64,000 nucleotides of DNA from Dechloromonas sp. H13. Lineage in GTDB: Bacteria > Pseudomonadota > Gammaproteobacteria > Burkholderiales > Rhodocyclaceae. A program made the translations under genes and the position numbers. The notes below the pieces were generated by a model that worked only from the letters and a program-made list of their open reading frames with translations, made no database searches and was not told where the DNA came from. Where the stretch lies: contig NZ_SSXX01000005.1 in assembly GCF_009469615.1 (NCBI RefSeq), positions 124,001-188,000 on the forward strand, written 5' to 3'. Shown here piece after piece: positions 2,715 through 63,429 of the stretch (position 1 is its first letter; each line of letters begins with the position of its first letter).

Positions 2715-3904
2715 GTCGCCACCCCCAGGATCAGGCTGCAGTTGCTGCCGCCGAAGCCGAACGAGTTGCTCAGGGCGCGGCGGATGTGGCCGTCGCGGCT
2801 GTGCAGCAGGTAGGCGAGCGGCAGTGCCGGGTCGGGCGTTGCGGTGCCCGGGCTGCCGGGCAGCAGGTCGTGCGTCAGCGCCAGCGCGCAGATCACGGCT
2901 TCGACGGCGCCGGCGGCGCCCAATGTGTGGCCGGTGGCGCCCTTGGTCGAGCTGCACGCGACGCGGCTGCCGAATAGCGCGGCGACTGCCTTGCCCTCGG
3001 CGGTGTCATTGGCCGGCGTCGCCGTCCCGTGCAGGTTGATGTAGTCGATGTCGGCCGTGGCGAGCCCGGCGGAGCGCAATGCGCTTTCCATGGCCAGGCG
3101 GGCGCCGAGGCCTTCCGGGTGCGGCGCCGACATGTGGTAGGCGTCGCTCGATTCGCCGCTGCCGAGGAGCAGGACGGCGCCGGCCGGCGCCCTGGCCGGG
3201 GCGCGTTCGAGCAGCGCGAAGGCGGCACCCTCGGCGACCGAGATGCCGTCGCGAGTCGCGTCGTAGGGGCGGCACGGCCGGGACGAGGTCAGTTCGAGCG
3301 AGGCGAAGCCGTAGAGCGTGGTCAGGCACAGCGAGTCGACGCCGCCGACGACGGCCGCGTCGATCACCCCGCAGGCCAGCAGGCGGGCGGCGGCGGCGAA
3401 TACCTTGGCGCTCGACGAGCAGGCGGTGGATACGGAAAAAGCCGGCCCTTCCAGCGCGAAATACGCGCGCGTGAATTCGGCCAGAGAAAAGGCGTTGTGT
3501 GTGGTGCGGTAGTTGAAGTCGTCGGGCAGCGCGCCGCTCGCCGGGTCGCGCCGGCGGTAGGCGAGCTCGGTCTGCAGGATGCCGGCGGTGCTGGTGCCGA
3601 GGAAGACGCCGATGCGCCGCTTGCCGTAGCGGGCGGCCGCCGCGCGCACGCGCTCGCCGAAGCCGTCGGCTTCGAGGGCCAGGGCGGCCAGGCGGTTGTT
3701 GCGGCAGTCGTAGGCGGCGAGCGTTTTCGGCAGTTTCTGGGCGTCGACCGCAGCGACCTCGCCGATCCAGGTGTCGAGCCGGACCGTCTCGAAGGCGCAG
3801 GGCCGCAGGCCGCTGCGGCCGGCGCGCAGGGCCGCCAGCATGGCCTCCAGCCCGTGGCCGAGACAGGTCGTTGCGGTGTAGGCGGAGAGAAGCTGCGGAG
3901 TCAC
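2711..3904 (-). CDS. Beta-ketoacyl-ACP synthase (ApeO-like), aryl polyene elongation
   Basis: This 397-aa thiolase-fold condensing enzyme starts with GTG. The catalytic triad is intact: Cys162 in STACSSSAK, His292 in LHGTATP and His326 in GATGHTLGAAGA, with the usual C-terminal NSFGFGGSN. It should condense malonyl-ACP with the growing polyene chain, working with the chain-length factor encoded immediately downstream. Residues 51-61 (AAVDAQKLPKT) are encoded by a copy of the dispersed 33-bp element. The KS-CLF-DH-KR order matches known aryl polyene clusters. Confidence 0.92.
   Translation of the reverse strand: MTPQLLSAYTATTCLGHGLEAMLAALRAGRSGLRPCAFETVRLDTWIGEVAAVDAQKLPKTLAAYDCRNNRLAALALEADGFGERVRAAAARYGKRRIGVFLGTSTAGILQTELAYRRRDPASGALPDDFNYRTTHNAFSLAEFTRAYFALEGPAFSVSTACSSSAKVFAAAARLLACGVIDAAVVGGVDSLCLTTLYGFASLELTSSRPCRPYDATRDGISVAEGAAFALLERAPARAPAGAVLLLGSGESSDAYHMSAPHPEGLGARLAMESALRSAGLATADIDYINLHGTATPANDTAEGKAVAALFGSRVACSSTKGATGHTLGAAGAVEAVICALALTHDLLPGSPGTATPDPALPLAYLLHSRDGHIRRALSNSFGFGGSNCSLILGVAT
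3722..3754 (-). repeat. 33-bp GYTGCGGTCGAC element, copy in ketosynthase gene
   Basis: Read on the minus strand this is GCTGCGGTCGAC followed by AAA at positions 19-21, TGCC at 23-26 and GAAAACG at 27-33. It is in the sense direction of the gene and codes for AAVDAQKLPK. Confidence 0.75.
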
Positions 3905-3966
3905 GTCGGACCTCGAGTCGATCAGGCCCGAATTCTAGACCAGAACCCGGGGTGCCGGTGTCGGAC

Positions 3967-4782
3967 TCAGGCGGTGGGCGGCCCGTCTACCGCGGTGGCC
4001 AGTGTGACCGGACGTAGCCCGTGCTCGGCGATGCTGCGCAGCAGCCCGGGGAGGACGGCGAGGATCAGCGGCTCGCCTTCCGGAGTGCGGCCGGCATGGC
4101 CGTCGTGCAGGAGCAGGATGTCGCCGGCGGCGAGGCGCCTGGTCAGGCGTTCGTGCACCGTGTGCGCGGCGCCGTCGCGGGTGTCGTAGGGACGCCGCGT
4201 CCACGCCGCGAGGCGCAGGTCGAGGCCGGCCAGCACGGGGTCGAGCAGCGGGCTGCGCAGGCCGGCGGTCGGCCGGAAGAAGCGTGGTGCCTGCCCGGTC
4301 AGGTCGGCCAGCGTCGCCTGGGCGGCGGCGATGTCGGCGCGCATGCGCGCCATGCCGAAGGTCGAGAAGGCCCAGGAATGCGAATCGCCGTGGTTTTCGA
4401 CGCGGTGGCCGCGGGCGGCGATGGCGCGGCACAGCGCGGGATGGGCGCGGGCGCGGCGGCCGATGCAGAAGAAGCTGGCCCGGACCCCGGCGGCGTCGAG
4501 CAGGTCGAGGACGCGCGGCGTGACCTCGGGGTCGGGGCCGTCGTCGATGGTCAGCGCGATTTCGCCGCGGCCGGCGGCGGCCGGCGGCAGGCGCGTCAGG
4601 TTGGGGCCGAGCACGCTCGAGCGGGGCAGCAGGCCGGCAGCGGTGAGCGCCAGATGATTGAGGCCGAGCGCGCCGAGCGCCCACGGCCAGGCGGCCGGCG
4701 CGGCGACGAGGCCGAGGGCGGCGGCGCCGTGCAGCGCGAACGAAAGCTTGATGGCGGGCGAAGGTTTCCAGGGCTGCGGCAT
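3967..4782 (-). CDS. Polysaccharide deacetylase (NodB-fold) in pigment operon
   Basis: This 271-aa protein has a hydrophobic N-terminus (about residues 14-52, one or two membrane spans), then a NodB domain. Motif 1 TIDDGPDP gives the catalytic and metal Asp pair, motif 2 ENHGDSHSW gives the metal His pair, then FFRPTAG and a late LLLHDGH. It should remove acyl groups (usually N-acetyl) from a sugar, or cleave a related C-N or ester bond, at the membrane. It is 4 bp from the hydrolase gene and co-directional with the pigment genes. Such an enzyme is not a core part of the E. coli aryl polyene set, so it may tailor the lipid head group. Confidence 0.85.
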   Translation of the reverse strand: MPQPWKPSPAIKLSFALHGAAALGLVAAPAAWPWALGALGLNHLALTAAGLLPRSSVLGPNLTRLPPAAAGRGEIALTIDDGPDPEVTPRVLDLLDAAGVRASFFCIGRRARAHPALCRAIAARGHRVENHGDSHSWAFSTFGMARMRADIAAAQATLADLTGQAPRFFRPTAGLRSPLLDPVLAGLDLRLAAWTRRPYDTRDGAAHTVHERLTRRLAAGDILLLHDGHAGRTPEGEPLILAVLPGLLRSIAEHGLRPVTLATAVDGPPTA

Positions 4783-4786
4783 GGCG

Positions 4787-5434
4787 TCAGGCGGAAAAGT
4801 GGCCGAGATCGAGGAAATGTTCCCACAACTGCTGCCACACCGGCCATTCGTGGCCGCCGGGAACGACGGCGCGGGCGGCCGGCGGGAAGCGTTCGGCGAT
4901 CCGTTGCATGCCGGCAGCGAAGCGGTCCTCGCGGCCGTAGCCGACGAAGATCGGCAGGCCGGCCGGCGGGTTCTGCAGCCAGCGCCACATGCGGAATTCC
5001 GGATCGGCCAGTTCTTCCGCGCTCGCCTGCCAGCGGTCGAGGCCGCCGGCGCGGTCGATGGCGGCGGTGGTCAGGCGGCTGCCTGGATACGGCGCGAGCA
5101 GGCAGAGGCCGTCGACGCTGCCCGGCGTGTCGGCGGCGTGGCAGAGGGCGAGCAGGCCGCCGAGCGAGATGCCGCCGAGCCAGACCTTCCGGTAGCCCTG
5201 GCGGCGGGCCGGGGCGAGGATCTCGTCGTGCACGGCGGGCAACGCAGCGCCGGCGGAAATGGCCGCCAGATCGAGGTCGACCGCAACCAGGTCGAGCGCC
5301 AGGCGGCGCCGGGCGACGGTGGCGAAGAAATCGGCGGCGACGAAGTCCGCCGCGCGCATGTAGGCGCCGGGCAGCAGCACCAGCAGGTTGGGCGCGCCGC
5401 TCGTCTGGCGCAGGGTGGGCAGCGGATCGCTCAT
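4787..5434 (-). CDS. Alpha/beta hydrolase in pigment operon
   Basis: This 215-aa cytosolic hydrolase has the nucleophile elbow GGISLGG at about residues 96-102, an acid in GYGREDRF, and the His in GGHEWPVW. The triad therefore looks complete. Its ATG overlaps the MMPL stop as ATGA. It may act as an esterase or thioesterase releasing the polyene or trimming the lipid; the substrate is unknown. A weaker copy of the dispersed core lies at 5276-5287 and codes for VAVDLDL. It is an unusual member for this kind of cluster. Confidence 0.8.
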   Translation of the reverse strand: MSDPLPTLRQTSGAPNLLVLLPGAYMRAADFVAADFFATVARRRLALDLVAVDLDLAAISAGAALPAVHDEILAPARRQGYRKVWLGGISLGGLLALCHAADTPGSVDGLCLLAPYPGSRLTTAAIDRAGGLDRWQASAEELADPEFRMWRWLQNPPAGLPIFVGYGREDRFAAGMQRIAERFPPAARAVVPGGHEWPVWQQLWEHFLDLGHFSA

Positions 5435-7758
5435 GCGCCAGTTTCACGTGGAACGAAGATCGCCGCCAGCAGCAGCGCGAGGATGGCGCCCGGTCCGACG
5501 GTGACGCCGATGGCGTGCAGCATCGGCACCTGCGACAGGCCGAGGGTGCCGAAGCCGATGGCGGTGGTCAGGTTGGCGACCCCCATCGAGGCCAGCGTGT
5601 CGGGGTCGGGCGGACCGTCGGCGCCGGCGAAGAACAGCGCGTAGTTGGAGCCGACGGCGACGATCAGCAGCATGCCGACCAGGTGCAGGAGGTGGAGGCG
5701 TTCGCCGCTCAGGTGCAGGCCGGCGACGGCGAACAGCACGGCGAGCGCCAGCGGCAGCAGGACGGCGGCCAGCCGGCGCGGCGAGCGCAGCGTCGCGGCG
5801 AGCAGGACGACGATGGCGGCAAGGCCGGCAAGGGCGAGGTGCACGGCTTCGTGCAGGTAGTCGTGGTAGAGGGTGTCGAGTTCGCCCTTGAGGTCGAGGG
5901 CGAGCGCGCCGCTGCCGGCGAGCGCCTGGCGTACCGCGGCGAGGCCGGCCGCCGGGTCGCCGTCGGCCAGGCGCAGCGGCAGGACGGCGCTCCAGCCGCC
6001 GGCGCGCGGCAGCAGCAGCGCATCGACGGCCAGGCCGGGGCCGCTCCCGGCCAGATCGCCGCGAGTGATGTCGGGCGCCTGGCGGGCGGCGGCGACGTCG
6101 GCGACGAAGCCCGCCAGCTTGCCGGCGGCCAGCGGCGAATCGGCGAGCGCCGCCTGCAGCCGTGGCCACAGTTCTTCGGCGGCCGGCAGGCTGGCGCGCC
6201 GTGCCGCCTGCTGCGCCTGGCTCGGCAGGAAGCGCGCCGGGCTGTCGTAGCCGGCGATGGCGCCGGCGGCCTGCAACTCGTCGAGCACCTGCCCTGCCCG
6301 CTCGGCGGCCTGCAGCGCGGCCTCCTGATCGACGCCGCCGACGACCACCAGGAAGCGCGCATCGGACGTGCCGAGGTCGGCGCGCAGCGCCGCGTCGGCG
6401 GCGGCATCGGCGCGGCTGGTGGTGCTCAGCACCGAGAGCTCGGGTGCCCACAGGCGGTCGCGTTCTCCGGCGAGGTAGGCGGTGGCCGTCAGGGCGAGGA
6501 CCACCGCTGGCCAGCGCAGGCGGCGCAGGCGGTGCATGGCGCCCTGCAGGGCGCCGCCGAGTGCGCCGAGGTCACGCGCGGCGACGTGCTCGCCGGCCAG
6601 CTGCGGCAGCACGTAGCGGGTGACGACGGCGGCCGTGGCGACGCCGCTCAGGGCGTAGAGCCCAAGCTGGGCGAGGCCGGGGAAGCCCGAGAAAAGCAGC
6701 GCGCCGAAGCCGCAGGCCGAGGTCAGCACGCCGAGCCGGATGGTCGGCCAGAAGCGCGCCTGCCACGCGGCGAGACCGCCGCGCCGCGACTGCACGAAGT
6801 AGTAGATCGAGTAATCGACGGCCTCGCCGATCAGCGCCGAGCCGAAGCCGACGGTGATGCCGAACACCGTGCCCCAGGCCAGGCTGACGGCGACGATGCC
6901 GGCCAGGGCGCCGGACAGCACCGGCAACAGGCCGAGCCCGAGCAGGCGCGGCGAACGGTAGACGAAAAGGAGGACGGCGACGATGGCCAGGGTGCCGATC
7001 GCCGACAGACGCGAGACGTCGCCCTTGATCGTCGCCCGCGACTTGACGGCAAAGAGGCCGGGACCGGAAAGCTGCAGGCGGGCGTCGGCGACGCCGGCCG
7101 CCGCGGCGCTCGCCGCGAACTGCGCATGGATGGCCGCGATGGCGGCTTCCTGGCCGTCGGTGTCGGCGCCCGCCGCGCGCGTCTGGACCAGGAGCAGCGC
7201 CCGTTCGCCGTCGGGCGAGGCCCAGACGCCGTCGCGGCTGTTGGGCTGGGCGCCGGGGTCAAGCTGGCGCAGCACTTCGAACAGTTCGCCGGTCGGGTCG
7301 CGCGGCAGCAGCGGCTTGAGCAGCAGGCCGGCCGGCGAGGCGAGGCGGTCGATGCTGTCGGAAATTGCCGTCCGCAGGCCGTCGACCGTGAAGCGTCCGG
7401 GCGTCACGGCCGGGCTGAGCAGGTAGCGGTGGCGGAACAGGAAATCGCGGTCGGCGTCGCGGCTGCCGGCTTCGCCGTTCTGCACGGCGACAAATTCGGG
7501 CATTCCGGCGAGTCGACCGCGCAGGTCGCGCGACAGCGCGGCGCGCTGCTCGCCGTTGCCGCCGGCGATGGCGACCATCAGCAGGCGGGCGACGGCGCCC
7601 TCCTTCAACTGTTCGACCAGGACCTGCTGCCCGGCGCTCGGACGGGCCGGCAGGAAGAACGACATGTCGGCGGTGAAGCGGCTGCTCCAGACGACGGCGG
7701 CGCCGGCCAGCATGGCGAGCAGCCAGAGCAGGAAGGCGCGGCGGCCGGCGCGGCTCAT
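5431..7758 (-). CDS. MMPL/RND-family lipid exporter (aryl polyene cluster)
   Basis: This 775-aa inner-membrane transporter has one N-terminal span (LLWLLAMLAGAAVVW), a large periplasmic loop, five or six spans around residues 245-420, a second periplasmic loop, and a last group of spans. The first ends at FVYRSPRLLG. This two-fold layout is that of RND/MMPL proteins and of ApeM-like exporters. It would move the aryl polyene lipid out of the inner membrane to the LolA-like carrier encoded next to it. The start at 7758 is chosen because it overlaps the LolA stop as ATGA; the open frame runs 184 codons further upstream as a shadow. Confidence 0.88.
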   Translation of the reverse strand: MSRAGRRAFLLWLLAMLAGAAVVWSSRFTADMSFFLPARPSAGQQVLVEQLKEGAVARLLMVAIAGGNGEQRAALSRDLRGRLAGMPEFVAVQNGEAGSRDADRDFLFRHRYLLSPAVTPGRFTVDGLRTAISDSIDRLASPAGLLLKPLLPRDPTGELFEVLRQLDPGAQPNSRDGVWASPDGERALLLVQTRAAGADTDGQEAAIAAIHAQFAASAAAAGVADARLQLSGPGLFAVKSRATIKGDVSRLSAIGTLAIVAVLLFVYRSPRLLGLGLLPVLSGALAGIVAVSLAWGTVFGITVGFGSALIGEAVDYSIYYFVQSRRGGLAAWQARFWPTIRLGVLTSACGFGALLFSGFPGLAQLGLYALSGVATAAVVTRYVLPQLAGEHVAARDLGALGGALQGAMHRLRRLRWPAVVLALTATAYLAGERDRLWAPELSVLSTTSRADAAADAALRADLGTSDARFLVVVGGVDQEAALQAAERAGQVLDELQAAGAIAGYDSPARFLPSQAQQAARRASLPAAEELWPRLQAALADSPLAAGKLAGFVADVAAARQAPDITRGDLAGSGPGLAVDALLLPRAGGWSAVLPLRLADGDPAAGLAAVRQALAGSGALALDLKGELDTLYHDYLHEAVHLALAGLAAIVVLLAATLRSPRRLAAVLLPLALAVLFAVAGLHLSGERLHLLHLVGMLLIVAVGSNYALFFAGADGPPDPDTLASMGVANLTTAIGFGTLGLSQVPMLHAIGVTVGPGAILALLLAAIFVPRETGA

Positions 7759-8321
7759 CGCTCGGCGAGCGGTTCGATGAGCATCAGCGAGCGGTCGCCG
7801 TCGGCCTGCAGATACTCGATGCTGCGGATGTGGTCGCGGCTGCCGCTGATCGTGATGCGCTGGACCAGGCTGGCAATCCGCTGGTCGCTGGGCAGCAGTG
7901 TGAGCACCCACTTGTCCGGGTTGCCCGACAGGTGCAGGAGATAGTTCTTCTCGAGCGCGCTCCGGTTGCCGTTCAGCGTGCCGCGCAGGCTGTCGACGAA
8001 GGCGAGTGCTTCCGGCTGGCTGGCGAGGTTGATACTCAGTTTCTGCTTCTCGCGCTCGATGCTCAGCGTGTCGCGGTCGAGCCGCAGGGTTTCCTGCTTC
8101 GGCGTCAGCGTGCGCTTTTCCAGGCGGTCCGGGGCGCCGTAGGTCAGCTCGCCGGTCGCGACGAGTGGCCGGTCGAGCAGCGCGATGTATTTCGTCTCGA
8201 CGAATTTCGCCCTGCCCCCCTTGTGCCGGGCCAGGTCGTTCATCAGCTGGCCGATGTCGAAGGCGGCCATGGCCGGCAGGGCGAGGCCGAGCAGCAGGAG
8301 GCCGGCGCAAAATCGCTTCAT
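7755..8321 (-). CDS. LolA-like outer membrane lipid carrier (aryl polyene cluster)
   Basis: This 188-aa protein has a clear signal peptide (MKRFCAGLLLLGLALPAMAA) and then a LolA/LolB-type open-barrel sequence with KFVETKYIALLDRPLVATGEL at the front and a C-terminal strand region. It should bind a hydrophobic ligand in the periplasm and carry it to the outer membrane. Sitting between the MMPL exporter and an acyltransferase gene, it most likely carries the polyene lipid rather than lipoproteins. Both gene junctions are ATGA overlaps. Confidence 0.88.
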   Translation of the reverse strand: MKRFCAGLLLLGLALPAMAAFDIGQLMNDLARHKGGRAKFVETKYIALLDRPLVATGELTYGAPDRLEKRTLTPKQETLRLDRDTLSIEREKQKLSINLASQPEALAFVDSLRGTLNGNRSALEKNYLLHLSGNPDKWVLTLLPSDQRIASLVQRITISGSRDHIRSIEYLQADGDRSLMLIEPLAER

Positions 8322-9232
8322 GGGTTGTTCTGCCAGAAATCGAAGAAGTTGAACCAGTTGTAGGGCGCCACCCGGCAGAAATGCGTCAGGCGGTCGGCGT
8401 AATTCTGCATCGCCGCGCGGATTGCCGCATCGCGTTCGGCGCGCGGCGTCGCCGAAAAATCGGCGAGCGGCTCGAAGTGGATGCAGTAGCGGTTGCCGCC
8501 GAGGTAGAGGCCGGTCATGAAGAACACAGGCCGGCCGAGCATGGCCGCGGTGCGGAAGGGGCCGAGCGGAAACGGCGCCGGCGCGCCGAGGAACTGGCAG
8601 TCGACCGTCGCGTCGTCGCCGAGGCCGCGGTCGGCCAGCATGCCGACGAGGTAGCCCTGGTCGAGCCTGTCGCGCGCGGCGAGCATCGATCCCATGTGGC
8701 CGAGGGCGATGATGTCGTCGCCGGCCGCCGGGTTGATCGCCGCCAGCGTGGTGTTGATCTTGCGCGCGTTTTCCTCGTACATCAGCATCGCCACCTTGAG
8801 CCCGGCGCGGCCGCGGCCGACGGCGCGCAACACCTCGAAGCTGCCGAGGTGGGCGCCGATCAGCAGCGCCCCCGGCTGGCGGGCGAGCGCCGCGTGCAGC
8901 GCCTCGGCGCCGACGACCTCGATGTCGAACAGGTCGAAGCGGTCGTTGAGCAGGTAGATGCGGTCGTGGATGGTGCTGGCGAAGCTGAAGACGTGGCGGA
9001 AGCCGTCGCCCCAGCCGGCCCAGCGCCCGAGCGCGCGGTTGAGGTAGGCGCGGCTGTAGCGCCGGGCGCGCGGCGCGAACAGCACGTAGTAGGCGGCGAT
9101 GCCGTAGAGGACCAGGCGCCCGACGCGGCGCCCGAAGGTCAGCGAGATCCACACCATCAGGCGGAGGATGGCGAGGTTGCTTTTTTCCTGCTGGCGCCGC
9201 CAGTCGGCACCGGCCGGTCGTTCGCGGCTCAT
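8318..9232 (-). CDS. LpxL-like lysophospholipid acyltransferase (aryl polyene cluster)
   Basis: This 304-aa membrane-associated acyltransferase of the HtrB/LpxL type has a hydrophobic anchor around residues 22-52 and the H-x4-E catalytic motif in GAHLGSFEVL. It should transfer an acyl group, possibly the finished aryl polyene, onto a glycerol- or sugar-lipid acceptor. This would give the pigment its membrane anchor. It overlaps both neighbours as ATGA. Housekeeping LpxL/LpxM is unlikely because all neighbours belong to the pigment route. Confidence 0.86.
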   Translation of the reverse strand: MSRERPAGADWRRQQEKSNLAILRLMVWISLTFGRRVGRLVLYGIAAYYVLFAPRARRYSRAYLNRALGRWAGWGDGFRHVFSFASTIHDRIYLLNDRFDLFDIEVVGAEALHAALARQPGALLIGAHLGSFEVLRAVGRGRAGLKVAMLMYEENARKINTTLAAINPAAGDDIIALGHMGSMLAARDRLDQGYLVGMLADRGLGDDATVDCQFLGAPAPFPLGPFRTAAMLGRPVFFMTGLYLGGNRYCIHFEPLADFSATPRAERDAAIRAAMQNYADRLTHFCRVAPYNWFNFFDFWQNNP

Positions 9233-9534
9233 TGCGCGGCGGGCGTCAGGCTGCCGGCGGCCACGGCACGCTCCCCGGCGCGCACGGTGAAGGCGATGGC
9301 GCCGCCCGGCCTTTGGTCGAGCGCGAAGGTGAGCACTTCGCCGGGCCCGGCCGGGCTGAAGAACTTGGCGTTGCCGATTTGCCAGGCGCCGTCGGCCGCG
9401 CCGCGCAGTTGCCCGGCAAAGGCGATGGCACGGTCGAGCAGGACGACGCCGGGAACGATCGGGCGGCCGGGGAAATGGCCGGCGAAGGCGGGATGGTCGG
9501 CGGGCACCGGCCAGGCGAATTCAGCGGCCGCCAT
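9229..9534 (-). CDS. Small hot-dog dehydratase (ApeI-like)
   Basis: This 101-aa single hot-dog domain has the FabA/FabZ-type signature FAGHFPGRPIVPGVVLLD near the N-terminus. It should dehydrate 3-hydroxyacyl-ACP, pairing with the ApeP-like protein at the far end of the operon, as ApeI and ApeP do in E. coli. I start at the ATG 9532-9534, which overlaps the AMP-ligase stop by 14 bp; another ATG at 9550-9552 adds six residues. Neither has a strong ribosome site. Confidence 0.86.
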   Translation of the reverse strand: MAAAEFAWPVPADHPAFAGHFPGRPIVPGVVLLDRAIAFAGQLRGAADGAWQIGNAKFFSPAGPGEVLTFALDQRPGGAIAFTVRAGERAVAAGSLTPAAQ

Positions 9535-10864
9535 CGTGGACCTGTTCGGCATAGAGGGCCTGCAGGCGTTCGCGCGGCAGCTTGCCGGTGCTGTTGCGCG
9601 GCAGCGCGTCGAGCAGCACCAGCGGCCGCGGCAGGAAGACCGGGTCGAGGCGCTGGCGCAGGTCGGCGACGAGCTGCCGGCGGCTCAGGCCGGGGGCGAC
9701 GACAAAGGCGCAGAGACGAGCGATGCCGTCCGCCGTCTCGGCGTCGGGGAGGAAGAAGGCGGCATCGACGACGCCGGCGATGGCGGCGATCTGGTGGTTG
9801 AGGTAGGCCAGCGAGGTCCGCTTGCCGGCGATGTTGACCATGTCGGCATTGCGGCCGTGGAGCAGGAAGCGGCCGTCGGCGCGGATCTCGATCAGGTCGG
9901 AAAGCGGCACCCGGCCTTCGACGTGGCCGCCACTGGCGAACGTCGTTTCGTCGGCCTGCTCCAGCGCGACGCCGGGCAGCAGCTCCCAGGCGAGGTCGGC
10001 GGTGGTGCGCCGGCTAGCCAGCTGGCCGCTTTCGGTCGAGCCGTAGATTTCGTGGAGCGGCGCCTGGCATGCCGCTTCGGCAGCGCACGCCAGTTGTTTC
10101 GAGAGCGGTGCGGTAGCCGAGAGCAACAGGTCGACGGCGGGGATTTCGAGGCCGGCGGCCAGCAGCGCCGACAGGTGGAAGGGGGTCGTCACTAGCAGGC
10201 GCGGCGCCGGCACGGCCTGCAGCGCGGCGACGATGTCCTGCGGGTAGAAGGGCTTGCCGGACCAGAACGGCGAGTGGCCGTGCAGGGCGAGCAGCACCGT
10301 CGATTCGAAACCGTAGCTGTGCTGCGCCGGCACCGTGCCGACGATGCTGTGCGGCTGCCGCAGCAGGCCGAGGCGTTCGGCTTCGACGCGGCCGTTTCGC
10401 ACCAGCTTGCCCCAGGTCTTGTCGTGGGCGACCGGGCGACCGGTCGAGCCGGAGGTGAACAGCCGGGCTGCGATCAGCTCGGCCGGGATGGCCGGGATTT
10501 TTGCCACTTTTGCGGCGTCGACCGCAGGCATCGCCGGAAAGACGAAGCGCGGCAGGTCGAGGCTGTCGAATTCGCCGTCGCTCAGGCAATAGACGTCCGG
10601 GCATTCGGCGGCGATCTGGCGCAGCGTTTCGGCCGACTGCGAGGCCGGTTGCAGGCTGGTCTTGCCGCGCAGCAGGCCGGCTGCGAAGCCGACGGCGAAA
10701 CGGTAGCGGTCGTGGCAGACATTCAGTTGGTGCCGACCGGCCGGTAGCAGGGCGGCGAGTGCTTCGGCGTCGGCGATGAAGTCGCGGACGCGGACCGGCC
10801 CGTCGGCGCGCCAGGCGAAAACGTCGTCGAGGCTGGCGTGCCCGAGCAGCGGAACGAGGTTCAT
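9521..10864 (-). CDS. AMP-dependent acyl/aryl-ACP ligase (ApeH-like)
   Basis: This 447-aa ANL-superfamily enzyme has the phosphate-binding loop TSGSTGRPV at 137-145, YGSTESGQ, and the C-terminal catalytic lysine in NSTGKLPRERL. It should adenylate an aromatic acid (such as 4-hydroxybenzoate or a coumarate in known systems) and load it on the starter ACP. It is shorter than typical acyl-CoA ligases, as ApeH proteins are. Residues 114-122 (AVDAAKVAK) come from the dispersed 33-bp element. No aromatic ammonia lyase is in view to supply a cinnamate-type starter. Confidence 0.88.
   Translation of the reverse strand: MNLVPLLGHASLDDVFAWRADGPVRVRDFIADAEALAALLPAGRHQLNVCHDRYRFAVGFAAGLLRGKTSLQPASQSAETLRQIAAECPDVYCLSDGEFDSLDLPRFVFPAMPAVDAAKVAKIPAIPAELIAARLFTSGSTGRPVAHDKTWGKLVRNGRVEAERLGLLRQPHSIVGTVPAQHSYGFESTVLLALHGHSPFWSGKPFYPQDIVAALQAVPAPRLLVTTPFHLSALLAAGLEIPAVDLLLSATAPLSKQLACAAEAACQAPLHEIYGSTESGQLASRRTTADLAWELLPGVALEQADETTFASGGHVEGRVPLSDLIEIRADGRFLLHGRNADMVNIAGKRTSLAYLNHQIAAIAGVVDAAFFLPDAETADGIARLCAFVVAPGLSRRQLVADLRQRLDPVFLPRPLVLLDALPRNSTGKLPRERLQALYAEQVHDGGR
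10496..10528 (-). repeat. 33-bp element, copy in AMP-ligase gene
   Basis: On the minus strand the core reads CCTGCGGTCGAC, with AAA at 19-21, GGC at 24-26 and AAAAATC at 27-33. It is in sense and encodes AVDAAKVAK, between the N-terminal region and the P-loop of the ligase. Confidence 0.75.
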
Positions 10865-11529
10865 CACCGGTCCGGCGGCGGTGCCCGGCGCGCCTTGCCG
10901 GCGCGGAAGGCGCGGATCGTGTCGGCGATGCTGGCGCGCTCCGCGGGCGGCAGGACGAGGTGGCGGCACAGGTGCTCGGCTGCGAACATCGCCAGGATCA
11001 GCGGCAGCATCAGGAAGTTGGCGAAGACCGACCAGACGGCGGCCGGCGCCAGCAGGAAGAGGCCGGTCGAAATGGCGGCGACGGTGACGAAGAAGCCGGT
11101 CCACGCCACCGTTACCTGCCGCGTGTAGCGCAGTTTGGCCGGCGACAGGCCTTCGGGATGGGCGAAGCGCGCCAGCTGGGTGATCAGCGGCTCATGGCCG
11201 GCGCCCAGCGTGCGGCCGAAGACGACGGCGAACGCCAGGTTGGTTCCGACGTGCTCGACGTAATGAAGCAGTGCGCCGTTCTCGCGCAGTTGTGGCCAGG
11301 CCCAGGCCAGCAGGGCGAGCGCCGCGAGACCGCCGCCGGCGATCGCCAGCGGGTTGCCGAGTCGCCGCAGCAGTATGGCGGCGACGATGACGATCGGTGT
11401 CGCGGCGAGCGCGGTGGAAAAATCGGAGGTGCCGCCGATGCTGTTGCGATGGGCGAAGACCGCCCACGCCACGGCCAGGCCGCCGAAGGTCGCGCTGCGC
11501 AGCAGGCTGGTGGCGCCGGCCGTGCTCAT
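10864..11529 (-). CDS. COG4648-type integral membrane protein of aryl polyene clusters
   Basis: This 221-aa protein has about six predicted membrane spans and no soluble domain. Members of this family (ApeG-like) occur almost only in aryl polyene clusters, and I know of no defined activity. The gene is between the AMP ligase and an ACP, with a TGATG overlap on one side and ATGA on the other. A role in holding the synthase complex at the membrane, or in lipid handling, is inference. Confidence 0.8.
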   Translation of the reverse strand: MSTAGATSLLRSATFGGLAVAWAVFAHRNSIGGTSDFSTALAATPIVIVAAILLRRLGNPLAIAGGGLAALALLAWAWPQLRENGALLHYVEHVGTNLAFAVVFGRTLGAGHEPLITQLARFAHPEGLSPAKLRYTRQVTVAWTGFFVTVAAISTGLFLLAPAAVWSVFANFLMLPLILAMFAAEHLCRHLVLPPAERASIADTIRAFRAGKARRAPPPDR

Positions 11530-14108: not shown

Positions 14109-15837
14109 GGAAGACGGCGGCTTCCTGGAAGCCGACCACGCGCAGCCCGGCGATTTCCCGGCCGCCGCGGTCGAAGAAGATGATCCCCGGCGGGCCGTAG
14201 AGCCCGAAGCGGGCGAGCAGCGCCTTGTCGTCCGCCGTGTTGGCGGTGACGTCGGCCTTGAGCAGCGTGAAACCGGCCATTTTCTCGCGCACCACCGGGT
14301 CGGCGAAGGTGAATTTCTCCATTTCCTTGCACGAGACGCACCAGTCGGCGTAGAAATCGAGCATCACCGGGCGGTCGACCGCAGCCAGCCGGGCGTCGAG
14401 TTCGGCCAGCGAGCGCACCGGCTCGAACGGTAGCTTCGTTTCCTGCGCCGCCACCGCCTGGCCGCGCAGGCCGGCCAGCGGCTGCAGCGGGTCGCGGCTG
14501 CCGGCCAGGGCGCCGATCAGCAGCGCGGCGCCGGTCAGCAGCATGACGATGCCGACGCCCTTCCAGAAGCGCTGCCAGCCCCGGGCGTGCGGCGGCAGCG
14601 GGTCGAGGGCGTGCAGGTAGATGGCGGGGACGATGAGCAGCGCCGCCCAGGCCAGCATCGGCACGACCGGCGGGACGACCGGCGCGATCAGCCAGATCGC
14701 GGTGGCCAGCAGCAGCACGCCGAAGCCCTTCTTGACGCCCTCCATCCACGGCCCGGTCTTCGGCAGCAGCGAACCGCCGGCGGTGCCGACGGCGATCAGC
14801 GGCGCGCCCATGCCGAGCGCCATGACGAACAGCGCCGTGCCGCCGAGCACGGCGTCGCCGGTCTGGCCGATGTAGAGCAGCGCGCCGGCGAGCGGCGCGG
14901 CGACGCAGGGGCCGACGATCAGCGCCGACAGGGCGCCCATGGCGAAGACGCCGACGCCGCGCCCGCCGCGCAGGTGGCCGGATTCTTCCGACAGCTTGCT
15001 CTGCAGCGCGGTCGGCAGTTGCAGTTCGTAGAAGCCGAACATCGAGAACGAGAGGACGACGAAGACCAGCGCAAAGGCGCCGAGCACCCAGGCGTTCTGC
15101 AGGGCGGCCGAGAGCAGCGTGCCGGTCAGCCCGGCGGCGATGCCGGCGGCGGCGTAGGTGACGGCCATGCCGAGCACGTAGGCGAGCGACAGCGCGAAGC
15201 CGCGGGCGTGCGAGGCCTTGTGCCCCTGTCCGGCGATGATGCCGGAGAGGATGGGGATCATCGGCAGCACGCAGGGCGTCAGCGCCAGGCCGAGGCCGGC
15301 GACGAAGAAGAAGGCGAGATTGGCCCAGAAGCCGGCGTCGCGCAGGATGCCGGCGATTTTGCCGCTTTCGTCGGCGTCGACCGCAGCCGGCGGCGGCGCG
15401 GCGGGCGTGCTCGCCGGGTCGGGCAGCGCCAGCGTCACCGTCTGCATCTGCGGCGGATAGCAGACGCCGGCATCGGCGCAGCCCTGCGAGGTGACGTTCA
15501 GCCGGAGCGGCAGCGTGCCGGAGGCATGGCGTTCGACCGGCAGGCGGATGGCGACGCTGTTGTAGAAGACCTCGACCTTGCCGAAATTCTCGTCGTTCTT
15601 TTCCTTGCCGCGGGGAAAGACCGGAGAGCCGAGCGTCACGCTCTCGCCGTCGACGGCGAAGCGGAACTTGTCGCGGTAGAGGTAGTAGCCCTTGGCGATG
15701 GCGAAGGCGACCTCGATGGTCTGCGCGTCGAGGGCGCGCGCGCTCGGCTTGAAGGCGACGGCCGGGTCGAGGAATTCGTCGGCGTGGACGAGCGAAACGA
15801 GCAAGGCGAAGAGGAAGAACAGGCGGCGCATGATCAT
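14080..15837 (-). CDS. dsbD: Thiol:disulfide interchange protein DsbD
   Basis: This 585-aa inner-membrane protein passes electrons from cytosolic thioredoxin to periplasmic thiols. The order is: signal peptide; N-terminal alpha domain with the Cys pair in GCADAGVCYPPQ; the eight-span beta domain with LTPCVLPMIP and GPCVAAPLAG; and a C-terminal thioredoxin domain with Cys500-x-x-Cys503 in DWCVSCK. All six key cysteines are present. Start 15837 overlaps the cutA stop as ATGA. A copy of the dispersed element codes for AAVDADESGK in the linker between the alpha domain and the first span. Confidence 0.95.
   Translation of the reverse strand: MIMRRLFFLFALLVSLVHADEFLDPAVAFKPSARALDAQTIEVAFAIAKGYYLYRDKFRFAVDGESVTLGSPVFPRGKEKNDENFGKVEVFYNSVAIRLPVERHASGTLPLRLNVTSQGCADAGVCYPPQMQTVTLALPDPASTPAAPPPAAVDADESGKIAGILRDAGFWANLAFFFVAGLGLALTPCVLPMIPILSGIIAGQGHKASHARGFALSLAYVLGMAVTYAAAGIAAGLTGTLLSAALQNAWVLGAFALVFVVLSFSMFGFYELQLPTALQSKLSEESGHLRGGRGVGVFAMGALSALIVGPCVAAPLAGALLYIGQTGDAVLGGTALFVMALGMGAPLIAVGTAGGSLLPKTGPWMEGVKKGFGVLLLATAIWLIAPVVPPVVPMLAWAALLIVPAIYLHALDPLPPHARGWQRFWKGVGIVMLLTGAALLIGALAGSRDPLQPLAGLRGQAVAAQETKLPFEPVRSLAELDARLAAVDRPVMLDFYADWCVSCKEMEKFTFADPVVREKMAGFTLLKADVTANTADDKALLARFGLYGPPGIIFFDRGGREIAGLRVVGFQEAAVFLKQLQRAAG
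15355..15387 (-). repeat. 33-bp element, copy in dsbD linker
   Basis: Minus-strand core GCTGCGGTCGAC is followed by GAAA, GCGGC and AAAATC, ending at position 33. It is in sense and gives AAVDADESGKIA, at the junction between the periplasmic alpha domain and the membrane domain of DsbD. Confidence 0.75.
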
Positions 15838-16154
15838 TTGAGCGTTTCGGCGGCCACCCAGTTCAGGTAGGCCGGCAGGCCGCGCTCGACCGGCAGGGCG
15901 ATGATCTCCGGCACGTCGTAGGGATGGCGTTCGCGGATCAGGGTTTCGAGGGCCGCGTAATTGGTTGCGGTCGACTTGAGCAGGAGCGGGATTTCCGTCG
16001 CCGATTCGACGGCGCCTTGCCAGCGGTAGACGGACTGGACGCGCGGCAGGATGTTGACGCAGGCGGCCAGGCGGGCCTCGACGGCGGCGAGCGCAATGGC
16101 GTTGGCGGTTTCTTCGTCCGGGCAGTTGGCGATGACGAGCAGGGTCTGGTGCAT
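15834..16154 (-). CDS. cutA: Divalent-cation tolerance protein CutA
   Basis: This 106-aa trimeric PII-like protein has the family signatures CPDEETANAIA near the start, RLAACVNILPRVQSVYRW, and RERHPYDVPEIIALPV. It is linked to copper tolerance in E. coli, though the true function is unsettled. Next to dsbD it forms the common cutA-dsbD pair. An antisense copy of the 12-nt element core lies at 15964-15975. Confidence 0.95.
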   Translation of the reverse strand: MHQTLLVIANCPDEETANAIALAAVEARLAACVNILPRVQSVYRWQGAVESATEIPLLLKSTATNYAALETLIRERHPYDVPEIIALPVERGLPAYLNWVAAETLK

Positions 16155-18129: not shown

Positions 18130-18162
18130 GTTGCGGTCGACGCCCGCAAAAGGCCGATTTTC
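18130..18162 (+). repeat. 33-bp element, intergenic copy
   Basis: GTTGCGGTCGAC followed by AAAA, GGCC and GATTTTC. It lies in the 104-bp gap between the secreted-protein gene and the ABC ATPase gene, directed against both. Confidence 0.8.
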
Positions 18163-47349: not shown

Positions 47350-48404
<1,055 letters not shown>

Positions 48405-50588: not shown

Positions 50589-51439
50589 TTCGCCGGCCTC
50601 GCCACCAGATAGACGCCGCCGACCGCCAGCGCCATGCCGACGGTTGCGGTCGACGTCAGTTTTTCGCCGAAAACGAGCCCGGCGATCAGCGCCGTCGACA
50701 GCGGCGTCAGGTAGAACAGGCTGGCCACGTTCACCGCGCTGCCGTTGCGGATCAGCAGGTTGAGCAGGCTGATGGCACCGATCGAGAGGACCAGCACCAG
50801 CCAGCCCAGCGCGAAGATGAAATCGCCCGTCCAGGCGACCTGGTAACCCTCGACCAGTGCCACCGCCACGGCGGTCAGCAAGGCGGTCGGCACGAACTGG
50901 ATCACCGACCCGGTGCGCAGGTCGAAGCTGGCGCAGAAGCGCTTCTGGTAAAGCGTCCCGGCCGTGATGCCGAGCAGCGCGACGAGCGCCGGGATCAGCA
51001 TCGGCCCCAGCGCCGCGTCGCCGAACTTGCCGGAAACGACCAGGCCGACGCCGACGAAGCCGAGCGCCAGGCCGCCCCATTGGCGAGCGCTCACTTTCTC
51101 GTCGAGTAGCCAGCCGGCGCCCAGCGCCGTCAACAACGGCTGCATGCCGACGACCAGCGCCGTGACGCCGGCCGGCAGCCCGTGGGCGATGGCGACGAAG
51201 ACGCCGCCGAGATAGACGGCATGCACCAGCAACCCGGACACCCCGATGTGCAGCCATTGGCGCGGCGACTTCGGCCATGGTGCGCGGGTCGCCAGCGCGA
51301 TGACCGTCATCAGCGCGATGACCAGCCCGTAGCGCGTCAGCAGGAAGGACAGCGGCGCGGCATACGGCAGCCCGTACTTGGCGCCGATGAAGCCGGTGCT
51401 CCACAGGAAGACGAAGAGCAGCGGGTAGACGCGCTGCAT
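50585..51439 (-). CDS. DMT-superfamily EamA transporter
   Basis: This 284-aa protein has ten spans in two EamA repeats, with [22 protein letters not shown] at the front and [22 protein letters not shown] in the second repeat. Substrate unknown, likely a metabolite exporter. It is coupled to ruvC. An antisense core copy of the dispersed element is at 50643-50654. Confidence 0.88.
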
Positions 51440-52745: not shown

Positions 52746-54359
52746 ATGTCCGAACCCCTCTATCTCGCCAAGTCCGAAGACGGCTACCCCGCCCTGCTGC
52801 CGCAGATGGCCAACCGCCACGGCCTGATCACCGGGGCGACGGGCACCGGCAAGACGGTCACCCTGCAGTCGATGGCCGAGCGCCTGTCGTATGCCGGTGT
52901 GCCGGTCTTCATGGCCGACGTCAAGGGGGACCTTTCCGGCATGGGCGCCGCCGGCGTCCTCACCCCCAAGCTGGAGGCGCGCCTGAAGGATCTCGGGCTC
53001 GAAGGCTTCGCGCCCTACGCCAACCCGGTCGCCTTCTGGGACGTCTTCGGCCAGGGCGGCATCCCGGTGCGCGCCACCGTGTCCGACATGGGCCCGCTGC
53101 TCCTCGCCCGCCTGCTCAACCTCAACGACACGCAGACCGGCGTCCTGCAGCTGGTGTTCAAGATCGCCGACGACCAGGGCCTGCTGCTGCTCGACCTCAA
53201 GGACCTGCGGGCGATGGTCCAGCACGTCGGCGACAATGCCGCGCAGTACAAGACCGAGTATGGCAACGTGACGACCGCCTCGATCGGCGCCATCCAGCGC
53301 GGCCTGCTGACGCTCGATGAACAGGGCGGCGATCTCTTCTTCGGCGAACCGATGCTCGACATCCACGACCTGATGCAGACGGACGCGAACGGCCGCGGCG
53401 TCATCAACGTGCTGGCCGCCGAAAAGCTGGTGCAGTCGCCGGCGCTCTACTCCACCTTCCTGCTCTGGCTGCTGTCCGAGCTCTTCGAGCAGCTGCCGGA
53501 AGCCGGCGACCTCGACAAGCCCAAGCTGGTCTTCTTCTTCGACGAAGCCCACCTGCTGTTCACCGACGCGCCGCAGGCGCTGACCGACAAGGTCGAACAG
53601 GTCGTGCGCCTGATCCGCTCCAAGGGCGTCGGCGTCTATTTCGTCACGCAGAACCCGCTCGACGTGCCGGAAAAGATCCTCGGCCAGCTCGGCAACCGCG
53701 TCCAGCACGCCCTGCGCGCCTTCACCCCGCGCGACCAGAAGGCCGTCCAGGCCGCGGCGCAGACCATGCGCGCCAACCCCAAGTTCGATGCCGCCACCGT
53801 CATCACCGAACTCGGCGTCGGCGAGGCGCTGGTCTCCTTCCTCGACGAAAAGGGCCGTCCCAACGTCGTCGACCGCAGCACCATCTTCCCGCCCGCCTCC
53901 CGCCTCGGCCCGCTGACCGCCGACGAGCGCCGGGCCGTCATCCAGGCCTCGCCGCTGCTCGCGACCTACGGCCAGACCGTCGACCGCGAATCGGCCTTCG
54001 AAATCCTGCGCGGCAAGCCGGCCGCCGCCCAGCCGGCACCCGGCGCCATTCCCGCACCGCCGGCCGGCGGCGGGCTGGACGCCAACGACTGGGGCAACCA
54101 CACGGCGCAGCCGGCGCCGCGCCCGGCGCCGCAGCCGCGCCAGAGCGCCCCCGCCCCGCAACCGTCAGGCGGCGGCATCCTCGACGGCCTCGGCGACCTG
54201 CTCGGCGGCAGCACCGGCCCGCGCGGCGGCAAGCGCGAAGGCATGATCGAAGCCGCCGCCAAGAGCGCCGCCCGCGGCATGGCCGGCACGGTGGGGCGCG
54301 AACTGGGCAAGCAGATCCTGCGCGGCGTGCTGGGGTCGATCCTCGGCGGGCGCCGCTAG
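52746..54359 (+). CDS. HerA-like ATPase, DUF853 (YjgR) family
   Basis: This 537-aa FtsK/HerA-type ATPase has Walker [15 protein letters not shown] at about 30-43, [12 protein letters not shown], Walker [14 protein letters not shown] and sensor [17 protein letters not shown]. The last 120 residues are a Pro/Ala/Gly-rich linker and a basic [14 protein letters not shown] to [13 protein letters not shown] end. A role in DNA or protein export has been guessed for the family, but it is not known. An antisense core copy lies at 53868-53879. A terminator follows. Confidence 0.93.
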
Positions 54360-54408: not shown

Positions 54409-54445
54409 AAATGGCGCCGGCATCCGCGGCGCCATTTTCATTTTC
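54409..54445 (+). terminator. Likely terminator after the HerA-like gene
   Basis: AAATGGCGCC and GGCGCCATTT form a perfect 10-bp stem with a 9-nt loop, followed by TTCATTTTC. It is 50 bp after the stop codon. Confidence 0.7.
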
Positions 54446-54471
54446 GGCCTTGCGGGCCGGTCGACCGCAGC
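54439..54471 (-). repeat. 33-bp element after the HerA-like gene
   Basis: Minus strand: GCTGCGGTCGAC, a GC-rich spacer, AAGGCC and GAAAATG. It begins in the T-rich tail of the terminator, repeating the terminator-plus-element arrangement seen at 33419-33475. Confidence 0.75.
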
Positions 54472-55131: not shown

Positions 55132-56032
55132 GCGCCTGCGCCCCGCCCTTTTCGGCGAGATGGTCGAAGAGGGCGGCGGCGGCCGGCGCCAGTGCGGCCC
55201 GCGAGCGCACGCACAGCTGCAGGTCGCGCGGCGCCCAGGCGTCGCTGATTTCGACCGTTTTTATCCCGTCGACCGCAACCACCGACGAGCGTGGCACCAT
55301 GCCGATGCCGACGCCGGCCGCCACCATGCGGCAGACCGCGTTGAAGCTGCGGACCTGGATGCGCACGTCGAGCCGGCCACCGAGGCGCGCCGCGTGGTTC
55401 ATCATGAAGGTGTGGATGGCGCTACCGGCGTGCAGGCAGACGAAGGGTTCGCCAAGGACGTCGGCGAAGGCGGCGGCGCCGCGCCCGGCCAGCGGATGCC
55501 CGGCGGGCACCGCGAGAATCAGGCGGTCGCGCCGGTAGGGACGGGTTTCCAGGCCGCCGAGCCCGGCTTCGGCGGCGACGACGCCGATTTCCACCTGCCC
55601 TGCCGCCACCGCTTGGATGATCGCCGGACTCGGCTGTTCCTCGAGGCTGACGCGGATCTGCGGCCGCTCGCGCAGGAAGTCGCCGAGGTCTTCCGGCAGG
55701 AAGCAGTTGATCGCGTTGGTGTTGGCGAACACCGTCACCTGGCTGGCGACGCCGCTGGCGTAGGGGGCGAGGTCGGCGTGCATCTGTTCGAGCTGGGCGA
55801 AGACCTGACGGGCGTGGCGCAGCAGCGATTCGCCGGCCATCGTCGGCGTCAGGCCGCGCGCGTGGCGGGCGAACAGTGGCACGCCGAGCGCCGTTTCGAA
55901 CTGCGTCAGGCGATGGCTGGCCGACGACGGCGCCAGGTGGACGAGGTCGGCGGCGCGCGTCAGGCTGCCGCTGTCGGCGATGGCGGCGACCAGCCGCAGG
56001 TCGGGAAGGTCATAGCGCATGGATTCGTCCAT
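55115..56032 (-). CDS. LysR-family transcriptional regulator
   Basis: This 305-aa regulator has an N-terminal winged HTH (LRLVAAIADSGSLTRAADL, then SSASHRLTQFE) and a C-terminal effector domain. It is divergent from an EamA transporter gene and so probably controls it. I start at 56032 (MDESMRYD); 56020 is possible. A full element copy codes for VVAVDGIKTVEI near residues 253-264. Confidence 0.92.
   Translation of the reverse strand: MDESMRYDLPDLRLVAAIADSGSLTRAADLVHLAPSSASHRLTQFETALGVPLFARHARGLTPTMAGESLLRHARQVFAQLEQMHADLAPYASGVASQVTVFANTNAINCFLPEDLGDFLRERPQIRVSLEEQPSPAIIQAVAAGQVEIGVVAAEAGLGGLETRPYRRDRLILAVPAGHPLAGRGAAAFADVLGEPFVCLHAGSAIHTFMMNHAARLGGRLDVRIQVRSFNAVCRMVAAGVGIGMVPRSSVVAVDGIKTVEISDAWAPRDLQLCVRSRAALAPAAAALFDHLAEKGGAQAPTAGA
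55247..55279 (-). repeat. 33-bp element, copy in LysR gene
   Basis: Minus strand: GTTGCGGTCGAC, then AAAAA, GGTC and GAAATC. It is an almost perfect match in sense and encodes VAVDGIKTVEIS. Confidence 0.78.
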
Positions 56033-56216: not shown

Positions 56217-57119
56217 ATGCTTGAGCGGCACGGCCATCGCCTCGGCCTGTGGCTGGCGCTCGGCGCCGCCTTCGGCTTTTCGTTCAAGGCCATCTTCGTC
56301 AAGCTGGCCTATTCCGTGCCGCAGGCGGTGCCGGTCGATGCCGTCACCCTGCTCTCGCTGCGCATGGTCTTCGCGCTGCCGGTCTTCCTCTGGGTCGGCT
56401 TCCAGTCGAGCCGCGCCGCGCCGCCGCTGGCGCGCCGCGACTGGCTGCTGCTGACGGCGCTCGGCCTGCTCGGCTACTACGGCGCCAGCATCCTCGATTT
56501 CGTCGGGCTGCGCTACATCACCGCCGGGCTGGAACGGCTGATCCTGTTCACCTACCCGACCCTGACCGTGATGATCGGCGTCCTGTTCATGGGCAAGAAG
56601 CTGTCGCGCCGCGAGGTGGCGGCGCTGGTGCTGTCGTATGCCGGGATCGGCCTCGCCTTCGCCCACGACCTCGAGTTCGCCGGCGAAACGCGGGTCGTGC
56701 TGCTCGGCGCCGCCTTCGTCTTCGCCTCGTCGCTGTCCTACGCCTTCTACCTGGCCGGCAGCGCGCCGATGATCCAGCGCCTTGGCGCGGCGCGCTTCAC
56801 GGCGCTGGCGATGCTGGTGTCGACCGGCGCCACGCAGTTGCATTTCTTCGCCACCCAGCCGTTGACCGCGCTCGTCCAGCCGCTGCCGGTCTATGCCTAT
56901 GGTGCGGCGATGGCCCTGTTCTCGACCGTCCTGCCGGTCTTCATGCAGTCGGCGGCGATCCGCCGCATCGGCTCGGCACGGGCGGTGCTGATCGGCACCA
57001 TCGGCCCGATGCTGACCATCTTTTTCGGTTGGTGGCTGCTCGCCGAACCGATCTCGCTGGCACAGATCGCCGGCACCGGGCTGGTGCTGGTCGGCGTCCT
57101 GCTCGTCTCGCGGCGCTGA
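56217..57119 (+). CDS. DMT-superfamily EamA transporter, divergent from LysR
   Basis: This 300-aa protein has ten spans in two EamA halves, with GFSFKAIFVKLAYSVPQ at the front, LDFVGLRYITAGLERLILFT and the end ISLAQIAGTGLVLVGVLL. It is likely an exporter of amino acids or other small metabolites, induced by the LysR protein. I chose the ATG at 56217 because it gives the family length; 56136 and 56061 are in frame but would add unusual residues. Confidence 0.88.
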   Translation: MLERHGHRLGLWLALGAAFGFSFKAIFVKLAYSVPQAVPVDAVTLLSLRMVFALPVFLWVGFQSSRAAPPLARRDWLLLTALGLLGYYGASILDFVGLRYITAGLERLILFTYPTLTVMIGVLFMGKKLSRREVAALVLSYAGIGLAFAHDLEFAGETRVVLLGAAFVFASSLSYAFYLAGSAPMIQRLGAARFTALAMLVSTGATQLHFFATQPLTALVQPLPVYAYGAAMALFSTVLPVFMQSAAIRRIGSARAVLIGTIGPMLTIFFGWWLLAEPISLAQIAGTGLVLVGVLLVSRR

Positions 57120-63386: not shown

Positions 63387-63396
63387 GTCGCGGCTG

Positions 63397-63429
63397 GTTG
63401 CGGTCGACCCCCGAAAAAGGCCTAAATCC
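63397..63429 (+). repeat. 33-bp element after ptsI
   Basis: GTTGCGGTCGAC, then AAAAA, GGCC and TAAATCC. A very good match, 10 bp past the ptsI stop. The rest of the 193-bp gap has a 12-bp palindrome TGCCGCGCGGCA (63467-63478) and no gene. Confidence 0.8.

Follow-up and report, generated by a model that had tools for sequence, protein, structure and literature searches.

A bipartite 33-bp element as a probable DNA uptake signal sequence of Azonexus and Dechloromonas

Why should a single 33-bp sequence recur on both strands of a bacterial chromosome, inside genes and between them? The question is raised by a 64-kb stretch of the Dechloromonas sp. H13 genome (contig NZ_SSXX01000005.1, positions 124,001 to 188,000), here called the window, in which a 10-nt core, TGCGGTCGAC, is followed by two A/T tracts. 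The original prediction offered three readings for this element, namely a DNA uptake sequence, a site for a chromosome-organising protein and a miniature repeat. Genomic features support the first of them well, and the element is probably a DNA uptake signal sequence of Azonexus/Dechloromonas. This reading draws on the copy number, the parity of strands, the occurrence of copies both in genes and in intergenic regions, the strong consensus, the coupling of core and A/T tracts, the restriction to one genus and the presence of competence genes.

Anatomy, abundance and origin of the copies

The core was found 22 times in the window, on both strands, against a mean of 0.33 and a maximum of 2 in 100 shuffles. 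The original prediction had counted 21, an excess that is real, having omitted a plus-strand copy at 48372 that overlaps the minus-strand copy at 48376; its expectation of well under one copy by chance agrees with the shuffle mean, and its coordinates hold, except that most of its plus-strand starts are those of the element, two bases before the core. Aligned window copies read G-Y-TGCGGTCGAC-n6-AAA-nn-G-S-C-n-A/T run-Y-C. The exact form that had been claimed for about 12 copies (AAA at positions 19-21, G24, S25, C26 and AAA at 28-30) fits six of the 22, with AAA present at 19-21 in eight copies and at 28-30 in nine; what did stand is an A/T run at positions 29-31, here called tract 2, found in 20 of the 22. 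The exceptions are the copy at 33709-33741 and a plus-strand core at 48370-48402 that shares sequence with a complete minus-strand copy. Tract 2 also follows seven of 17 further cores of the window that depart from TGCGGTCGAC by the R of TGCGGTCRAC or by C3 or A4.

A larger sample of 464 kb, made up of the window and twenty 20-kb stretches of the same genome (a 3.66-Mb assembly in 62 contigs), gave conserved positions at G(-3), Y(-1), G/T(0), G1, Y2, the 10-nt core and an A-rich 19-21, followed on the 3' side by G24, S25, C26, R/A/W/W at 28-31, T32 and C33. With all cores aligned, the downstream A/T pattern persisted, as had been expected: positions 29-31 are A/T in 93% of the 107 perfect cores, against about 4% by composition. 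Each single-base change of the core was then scored for the same run. Tract 2 was kept by 79% of 33 A10 copies, 45% of 33 C3 copies and 6/6 A4 copies, and only these three reached p<0.01 against an 11% null among the 29 single-base variants that occur, one of the 30 possible variants having zero copies. In the remaining classes, none with more than 20 copies, the tract was present in 0-40%, with the exception of a lone T10 copy that carries it, and six control words with matches showed it in 0-25% of at most seven copies. The core is best written TGCGGTCRAC, with C at position 3 and A at position 4 as weaker variants. Core and tract form one bipartite unit, a behaviour that codon use or a short motif alone would not give. 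As A at position 4 retains the tract in every copy, the GCGG occupying positions 4-7 of the element is not strictly invariant.

Eight logos built on YGCGGTCRAC from nine genomes, two of them pooled, all have an A/T content of 82-100% at positions 29-30 and a dip to G/C at 24-25. The A/T content peaks near position 20 and again near position 30, a distance of about 10 bp or one helical turn, the phasing that the original prediction had described. The bases preceding the core vary by species: G1 is prominent in the species of the window and in genomes G081, G020 and G024, T0 is prominent instead in G074, G008, G010 and the pooled G030 and G032, and G008 alone adds AT at -2 and -1.

A genome-wide count, one of the checks proposed at the outset, found TGCGGTCRAC 923 times (437 on the plus and 486 on the minus strand) against 26 occurrences of the reversed pattern (10 and 16); TGCGGTCGAC-N6-AAA occurs 115 times on the plus and 120 times on the minus strand, and its reversed pattern has zero occurrences. 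TGCGGTCGAC heads the 10-mers of the 464 kb, with 107 copies against 6.9 by a 4th-order Markov model; next in rank come overlapping words and TGCGGTCAAC (33 against 2.2). The relatives G020, G030 and G032, sampled over 100 kb each, have the same leading 10-mer. According to passages of PMC1626085, perfect cores of the uptake signal sequence (USS) of Pasteurellaceae outnumber singly mismatched ones, and the copies originate by substitution. Here the 107 perfect copies exceed every single-mismatch class (at most 33 each), and the 30 single mismatches summed reach about 205, above the perfect copies, the hallmark being thus seen per variant only.

In the 464 kb, 51 cores lie on the plus and 56 on the minus strand. 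As labelled by a home-made codon-usage gene caller (coding fraction 0.80), which makes all such labels in this text approximate, 72 are genic and 35 intergenic, in agreement with the earlier statement that copies lie both within and between genes, and their density is 0.37/kb in intergenic and 0.20/kb in genic sequence. Thirty of the intergenic copies could be classified, with 11 between convergent and 19 between tandem genes and 0 between divergent ones, a class that makes up about 15% of the intergenic bases. That the element is a by-product of codon and base composition is hardly credible. Such a reading could point to the one sense frame, reading Ala-Val-Asp, that is shared by 36/72 genic copies, but 72 copies were observed where 30 synonymous-codon shuffles of these genes averaged 7.4, with a maximum of 14. 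This roughly 10-fold excess contradicts it, bearing out the earlier view that codon bias is insufficient; the higher intergenic density and the rarity of the reversed pattern also stand against it.

How copies arise was addressed through orthologous loci, using 178 site pairs from 167 blastn alignments to other genomes, of which 134 pairs belong to the ruvB locus and 44 to 36 other sites. This comparison of presence and absence, also proposed at the outset, found the core present in 51 pairs, substituted in 85 and gapped in 42; for the 44 pairs at the non-ruvB sites the figures are 23, 15 and 6. Within 45 nt of the core, relatives lacked at most 12 consecutive nt, so that no gain of a 33-bp unit was seen in the 178 pairs; orthologous copies are distinguished by point substitutions and small indels. 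The fixed length and strong consensus would suit a dispersed mobile or miniature repeat, a very unlikely explanation in view of the missing gains, the in-frame reading of the ruvB copies and the six free bases within the unit. The original prediction was thus right in holding a mobile element insufficient, and its own miniature-repeat reading is contradicted by the same 12-nt limit.

Among the 68 genomes in which the ruvB 5' end was compared, a core of one orientation or the other occurs in 15/22 genomes with at least 40 copies/Mb, 3/12 intermediate genomes and 5/34 with under 10 copies/Mb, and a core in sense orientation in 10/22, 0/12 and 2/34, respectively, a trend that is illustrative because it is partly due to conserved Val-Asp-Arg-Ile coding. 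The ruvB copy stands at another distance from the start codon in several motif-rich genomes (e.g. G010, G003, G034, G235 and G082).

Arrangement, distribution and competence genes

Strand totals over 76 Azonexus/Dechloromonas genomes are 4629 and 4654. The proposed test of strand bias against origin and terminus, and of spacing, was carried out on one complete genome, in which 60 AAA-bearing sites showed no replichore-strand asymmetry (p=0.38) and an exponential spacing, without regional clustering. These results bear on the second of the original readings, in which a chromosome-organising or segregation protein (nucleoid-associated, FtsK/KOPS-like, MatP- or SlmA-like) would bind a bent 33-bp site. 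A long bipartite site with phased A/T tracts would suit such a protein, and the copies of TGCGGTCRAC are somewhat more evenly placed than Poisson (mean 3.02 and variance 2.07 per 10 kb, 46 bins). The explanation is nevertheless improbable: the 60 sites give it no support in polarity or clustering, the element is absent from one 48.5-kb mobile island, and its patchy presence within a single genus, from 0 to 717 copies per genome, is hard to square with a core chromosome function.

That range was obtained with TGCGGTCRAC-N15-AAW in the 76 genomes, 27 of which have at least 100 copies and 27 at most 10. In 146 genomes from 67 other genera of the family (by the grouping of the search tool), TGCGGTCGAC-N15-AAW reaches at most 3 copies, and a sample of 393 genomes from the rest of the order gave at most 4 with TGCGGTCRAC-N15-AAW, the reversed controls reaching 3. 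Within the sampled order the element is therefore confined to Azonexus/Dechloromonas, which NCBI places in Azonexaceae, Rhodocyclales. A scan of the collection agrees, 71 of the 80 loci listed being labelled Azonexus or Dechloromonas. Two alignments place the window in this genus: its own to one of these loci (88% over 8 kb) and that of a further stretch of its genome to a second locus (93%). In a midpoint-rooted tree of two genes, genomes rich in the motif are intermixed with poor ones. No replacement motif was comparably enriched among 10- and 12-mers of G035, G071, G018 and G067 (100 kb each, a small sample); the strongest word in poor genomes was GGCGCGGGCG in G067, with 18 copies against 2.5. 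A viral collection, which by its own description holds 2.9 million contigs, contains the stricter motif in 23 stretches, none with more than two matches. Two copies, 457 bp apart, lie on viral contig L350 (2974-3001 and 3431-3458), and the other 22 stretches have one each.

The competence genes of the window's genome include ComEC (an open frame of 820 residues), DprA and ComM, and its pilins include a major pilin and a minor-pilin cluster. The first gene of the cluster, which lies near C6:264 kb beside a GspH/FimT-like neighbour, matches PF16732 (ComP_DUS), the family of the ComP receptor of the DNA uptake sequence (DUS), with 47.3 bits against a cut-off of 27.3. Competence status was scored by hand in the 76 genomes for split or partial comEC, comM and dprA, and gene pieces at contig ends may reflect assembly gaps. 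comEC is split in 10 genomes by insertions that separate its pieces by about 2 to 64 kb within a contig, one genome having three pieces; the insertion points lie mostly around profile positions 145-166, and two fall around 590. comM is split or partial in 11/76 genomes, in some of them at contig ends; in G018 stretches of at least 20 kb break up both comEC and comM, and in G060 comEC, comM and dprA are all incomplete. The one comEC island examined, in a genus relative (comEC at L304, L305), carries a large serine recombinase beside the gene and a tyrosine integrase, together with genes of the AAA_13, FRG, NERD, DNA polymerase B and D5 types. Insertion of mobile elements into competence genes is already known from comK, comYC, comFA and comM (passages of PMC4774983), and for Piscirickettsia an interrupted comEC is likewise reported (PMC12955456).

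Comparison of a carrier with an intact relative placed an island of 48.5 kb, of lower G+C, at a single point of comEC. It holds 0 copies of TGCGGTCRAC where 9.7 are expected from the scaled genome count, and two copies lie in its 9.5-kb flanks. Enrichment in self DNA, absence from this foreign island and patchiness at the level of the genus would also be compatible with a self-marker read by a recombination or defence enzyme, either a Chi-like site or a mark by which a modification or defence system spares motif-bearing DNA. Chi-like sites, however, are short and strand-polarised, whereas the element spans 33 bp and has no replichore bias in the one genome, and coupling to A/T tracts 15-20 bp away is unusual for modification sites, all of which leaves a self-marker quite unlikely.

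A link between loss of competence and low copy number was looked for. For comEC alone, the median is 2.0 copies/Mb in the 10 clearly split genomes and 16.1 in the 55 others compared (11 ambiguous genomes being left out; one-sided p=0.023). When any of the three genes is broken, density is lower over all 76 genomes (25 against 51, p=0.037), with p=0.11 among assemblies of at most 100 contigs (14 against 36) and p=0.094 when at least 90% completeness is added (12 against 32). This link is weak and unproven, and is not counted here as evidence.

Several observations speak against an uptake signal. Fisher tests of broken against intact genomes at 40 copies/Mb were not significant (p 0.43, 0.74 and 0.50), and broken genomes matched to their nearest intact relative were less dense in 8/14 cases (p=0.29). 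Thirteen of the 27 poor genomes (at most 10 copies) score intact for comEC and comM, and one or more competence genes score as broken or incomplete in 7/27 rich genomes (at least 100 copies). The PF16732 pilin occurs in 41/41 good genomes of the genus (56/60 searched), motif-rich and motif-poor alike, and is thus no proof of a receptor; for 18 pilins, which 31 loci yielded and which are probably not all the same gene, net charge and motif density gave a Spearman coefficient of 0.02. A second island of lower G+C, 43.3 kb long, holds 1 copy where 3.5 are expected (p=0.14). Two of the three empty 10-kb bins have a G+C of 0.51, the other bins having a median of 0.66, and the lower G+C of these bins and of the islands lowers the expected count by itself. 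Genome G024, a carrier with 11 copies in its 100-kb sample, lacks the motif among its top 10-mers listed, which are words of a local repeat. Close pairs are rare, three within 80 bp among the 107 cores, although inverted pairs capable of forming terminators are common for USS and DUS.

The copies of the window

Each copy is given here by its 33-bp coordinates. Perfect cores with both tracts lie on the minus strand inside an AMP-binding-enzyme gene (10496-10528) and a TolA-binding/TPR gene (42678-42710) and in intergenic sequence at 21607-21639, 33419-33451 and 55247-55279; on the plus strand they are intergenic at 18130-18162 and 63397-63429, genic at 27328-27360 and antisense inside an EamA transporter gene at 50643-50675.

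Perfect cores followed by tract 2 are found on the minus strand inside a ketoacyl-synthase-like gene (3722-3754), a dsbD-like gene (14353-14385 and 15355-15387) and a fatty-acid-hydroxylase gene (37219-37251), in other genic sequence at 5255-5287 and 53847-53879 and in intergenic sequence at 41166-41198 and 54439-54471. The plus-strand copies of this kind are antisense, at 15964-15996 inside the dsbD-like gene and at 45906-45938 inside an exbD/tolR gene. The minus-strand copy at 48355-48387, also with tract 2, is the one at the ruvB 5' end that was followed over 68 genomes. Here, within 48355-48402, a 14-bp palindrome, TGCGGTCGACCGCA, consists of two overlapping inverted cores, tract 2 being present on the minus-strand copy only, and the plus-strand core at 48370-48402 is its by-product. 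The other of the two perfect cores that lack tract 2, at 33709-33741, is on the plus strand inside an FHA/guanylate-cyclase gene.

Variant elements with tract 2 occur on the minus strand as CACGGTCGAC (7360-7392), CGCGGTCGAC (7491-7523 and, intergenic, 35501-35533) and CGCGGTCAAC (22251-22283, inside a P-type ATPase gene, and 56840-56872), and on the plus strand as TGCGGTCAAC (23113-23145, antisense inside a P-type ATPase gene). The variant TACGGTCGAC, with both tracts, lies on the minus strand at 49590-49622 inside a gene that we take, from its translation, to be ruvA.

Minus-strand genes with ketoacyl-synthase and AMP-binding domains at about 2700-11100 of the window suggest a small fatty-acid or polyketide-type cluster. 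Some palindromic 8-mers are strongly under-represented in the 464 kb, among them CAGCGCTG with 30 copies against 128 expected and TCGGCCGA with 46 against 135, and CAGCGCTG is likewise low in the relatives G020 and G024; avoidance of restriction sites may be the cause.

A putative uptake system and its known relatives

If the element is an uptake signal, a receptor on the type IV pilus of competent Azonexus/Dechloromonas cells would bind it and the cells would preferentially import their own DNA. The core TGCGGTCRAC would be read by a putative surface receptor, and the two A/T tracts, near positions 20 and 30, would give the helix a bend or make it softer and so allow its kinking through the secretin during pilus retraction, a step suggested by H. 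influenzae. ComEC, DprA and ComM, the genes for which are present in the genome, would then import and recombine the strand, and biased uptake with recombination would spread the copies and keep them. The species differences just before the core could represent uptake dialects, such as those of other families.

Azonexus/Dechloromonas comprise wastewater, denitrifying and perchlorate-reducing bacteria. The case is evenly balanced for regarding the free-living Rhodocyclales as a third lineage that evolved tagged uptake independently and converged on the design of Haemophilus, a GCGG core with helically phased A/T tracts. If so, this design would answer a demand of pulling stiff DNA through the type IV pilus secretin and would be no quirk of one family, and the element would offer an independent test of which parts, GCGG and phased tracts, are required. 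Sequence-tagged uptake would then not be tied to animal hosts, environmental bacteria providing the third bacterial family. A genus with 0-717 copies among 76 genomes would allow gain, loss and receptor change to be traced, and natural competence would be predicted in Azonexus/Dechloromonas.

No earlier uptake sequence for Azonexus, Dechloromonas or Rhodocyclales appeared among the literature matches listed, in a search that left subscription papers and preprints outside its range, and the matches listed for the 10-mer string are, by their titles and abstract openings, unrelated to uptake sequences. For another betaproteobacterium, Verminephrobacter, passages of PMC4212676 mention a possible sequence specificity of uptake and name no motif.

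The closest likeness in design is to the USS of Pasteurellaceae, which passages of PMC12616744 describe as a 9-nt core with the inner core GCGG and two discontinuous downstream A/T regions, up to 32 nt in total. In the Hin-type USS, tract 1 lies just 3' of the core and tract 2 is centred 12 positions from tract 1 (passages of PMC1626085), and interactions between core and tracts influence uptake, USS of high uptake having tracts predicted to be rigid and slightly bent (passages of PMC7811141). Like Hin-USS (AAGTGCGGT) and Apl-USS (ACAAGCGGT), the element has a GCGG-bearing core, shares TGCGGT with Hin-USS, and carries two A/T-rich segments 3' of the core within about 32 bp, core and tracts being interdependent; it also has hundreds of copies on both strands, genic and intergenic, that originate by substitution. 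Unlike them, its core is TGCGGTCRAC, neither AAGTGCGGT nor ACAAGCGGT, tract 1 starts about 4-6 nt after the 10-nt core, the tract centres are about 10 bp apart with a G/C-rich spacer at 24-26, and its host is a G+C-rich betaproteobacterium.

The DUS of Neisseriaceae is a single contiguous word, at most about 13 nt long, in which the CTG core is invariant and flanking motifs are lacking, according to passages of PMC12616744, PMC3630211 and PMC1626085. With this sequence (ATGCCGTCTGAA and its dialects) the element has in common a betaproteobacterial host, hundreds of copies, variants at the level of species and a minor pilin of the ComP family, but it is bipartite and its core lacks CTG.

Chi, KOPS, matS and parS are short chromosome-wide words that are strand-polarised or limited to a region, whereas the element, in the one complete genome, is neither. 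By its sequence, the element is neither Hin-USS, Apl-USS nor DUS; its behaviour is that to be expected of a third uptake sequence. The TGCGGT that it shares with Hin-USS could be due to chance, or else to physical convergence or remote transfer, and the near-absence of the element from other sampled genera of the order argues against common descent. Since core, tract spacing and host class all differ from those of the Pasteurellaceae USS, the element probably represents an independent third uptake-sequence system, beside those of Pasteurellaceae and Neisseriaceae.

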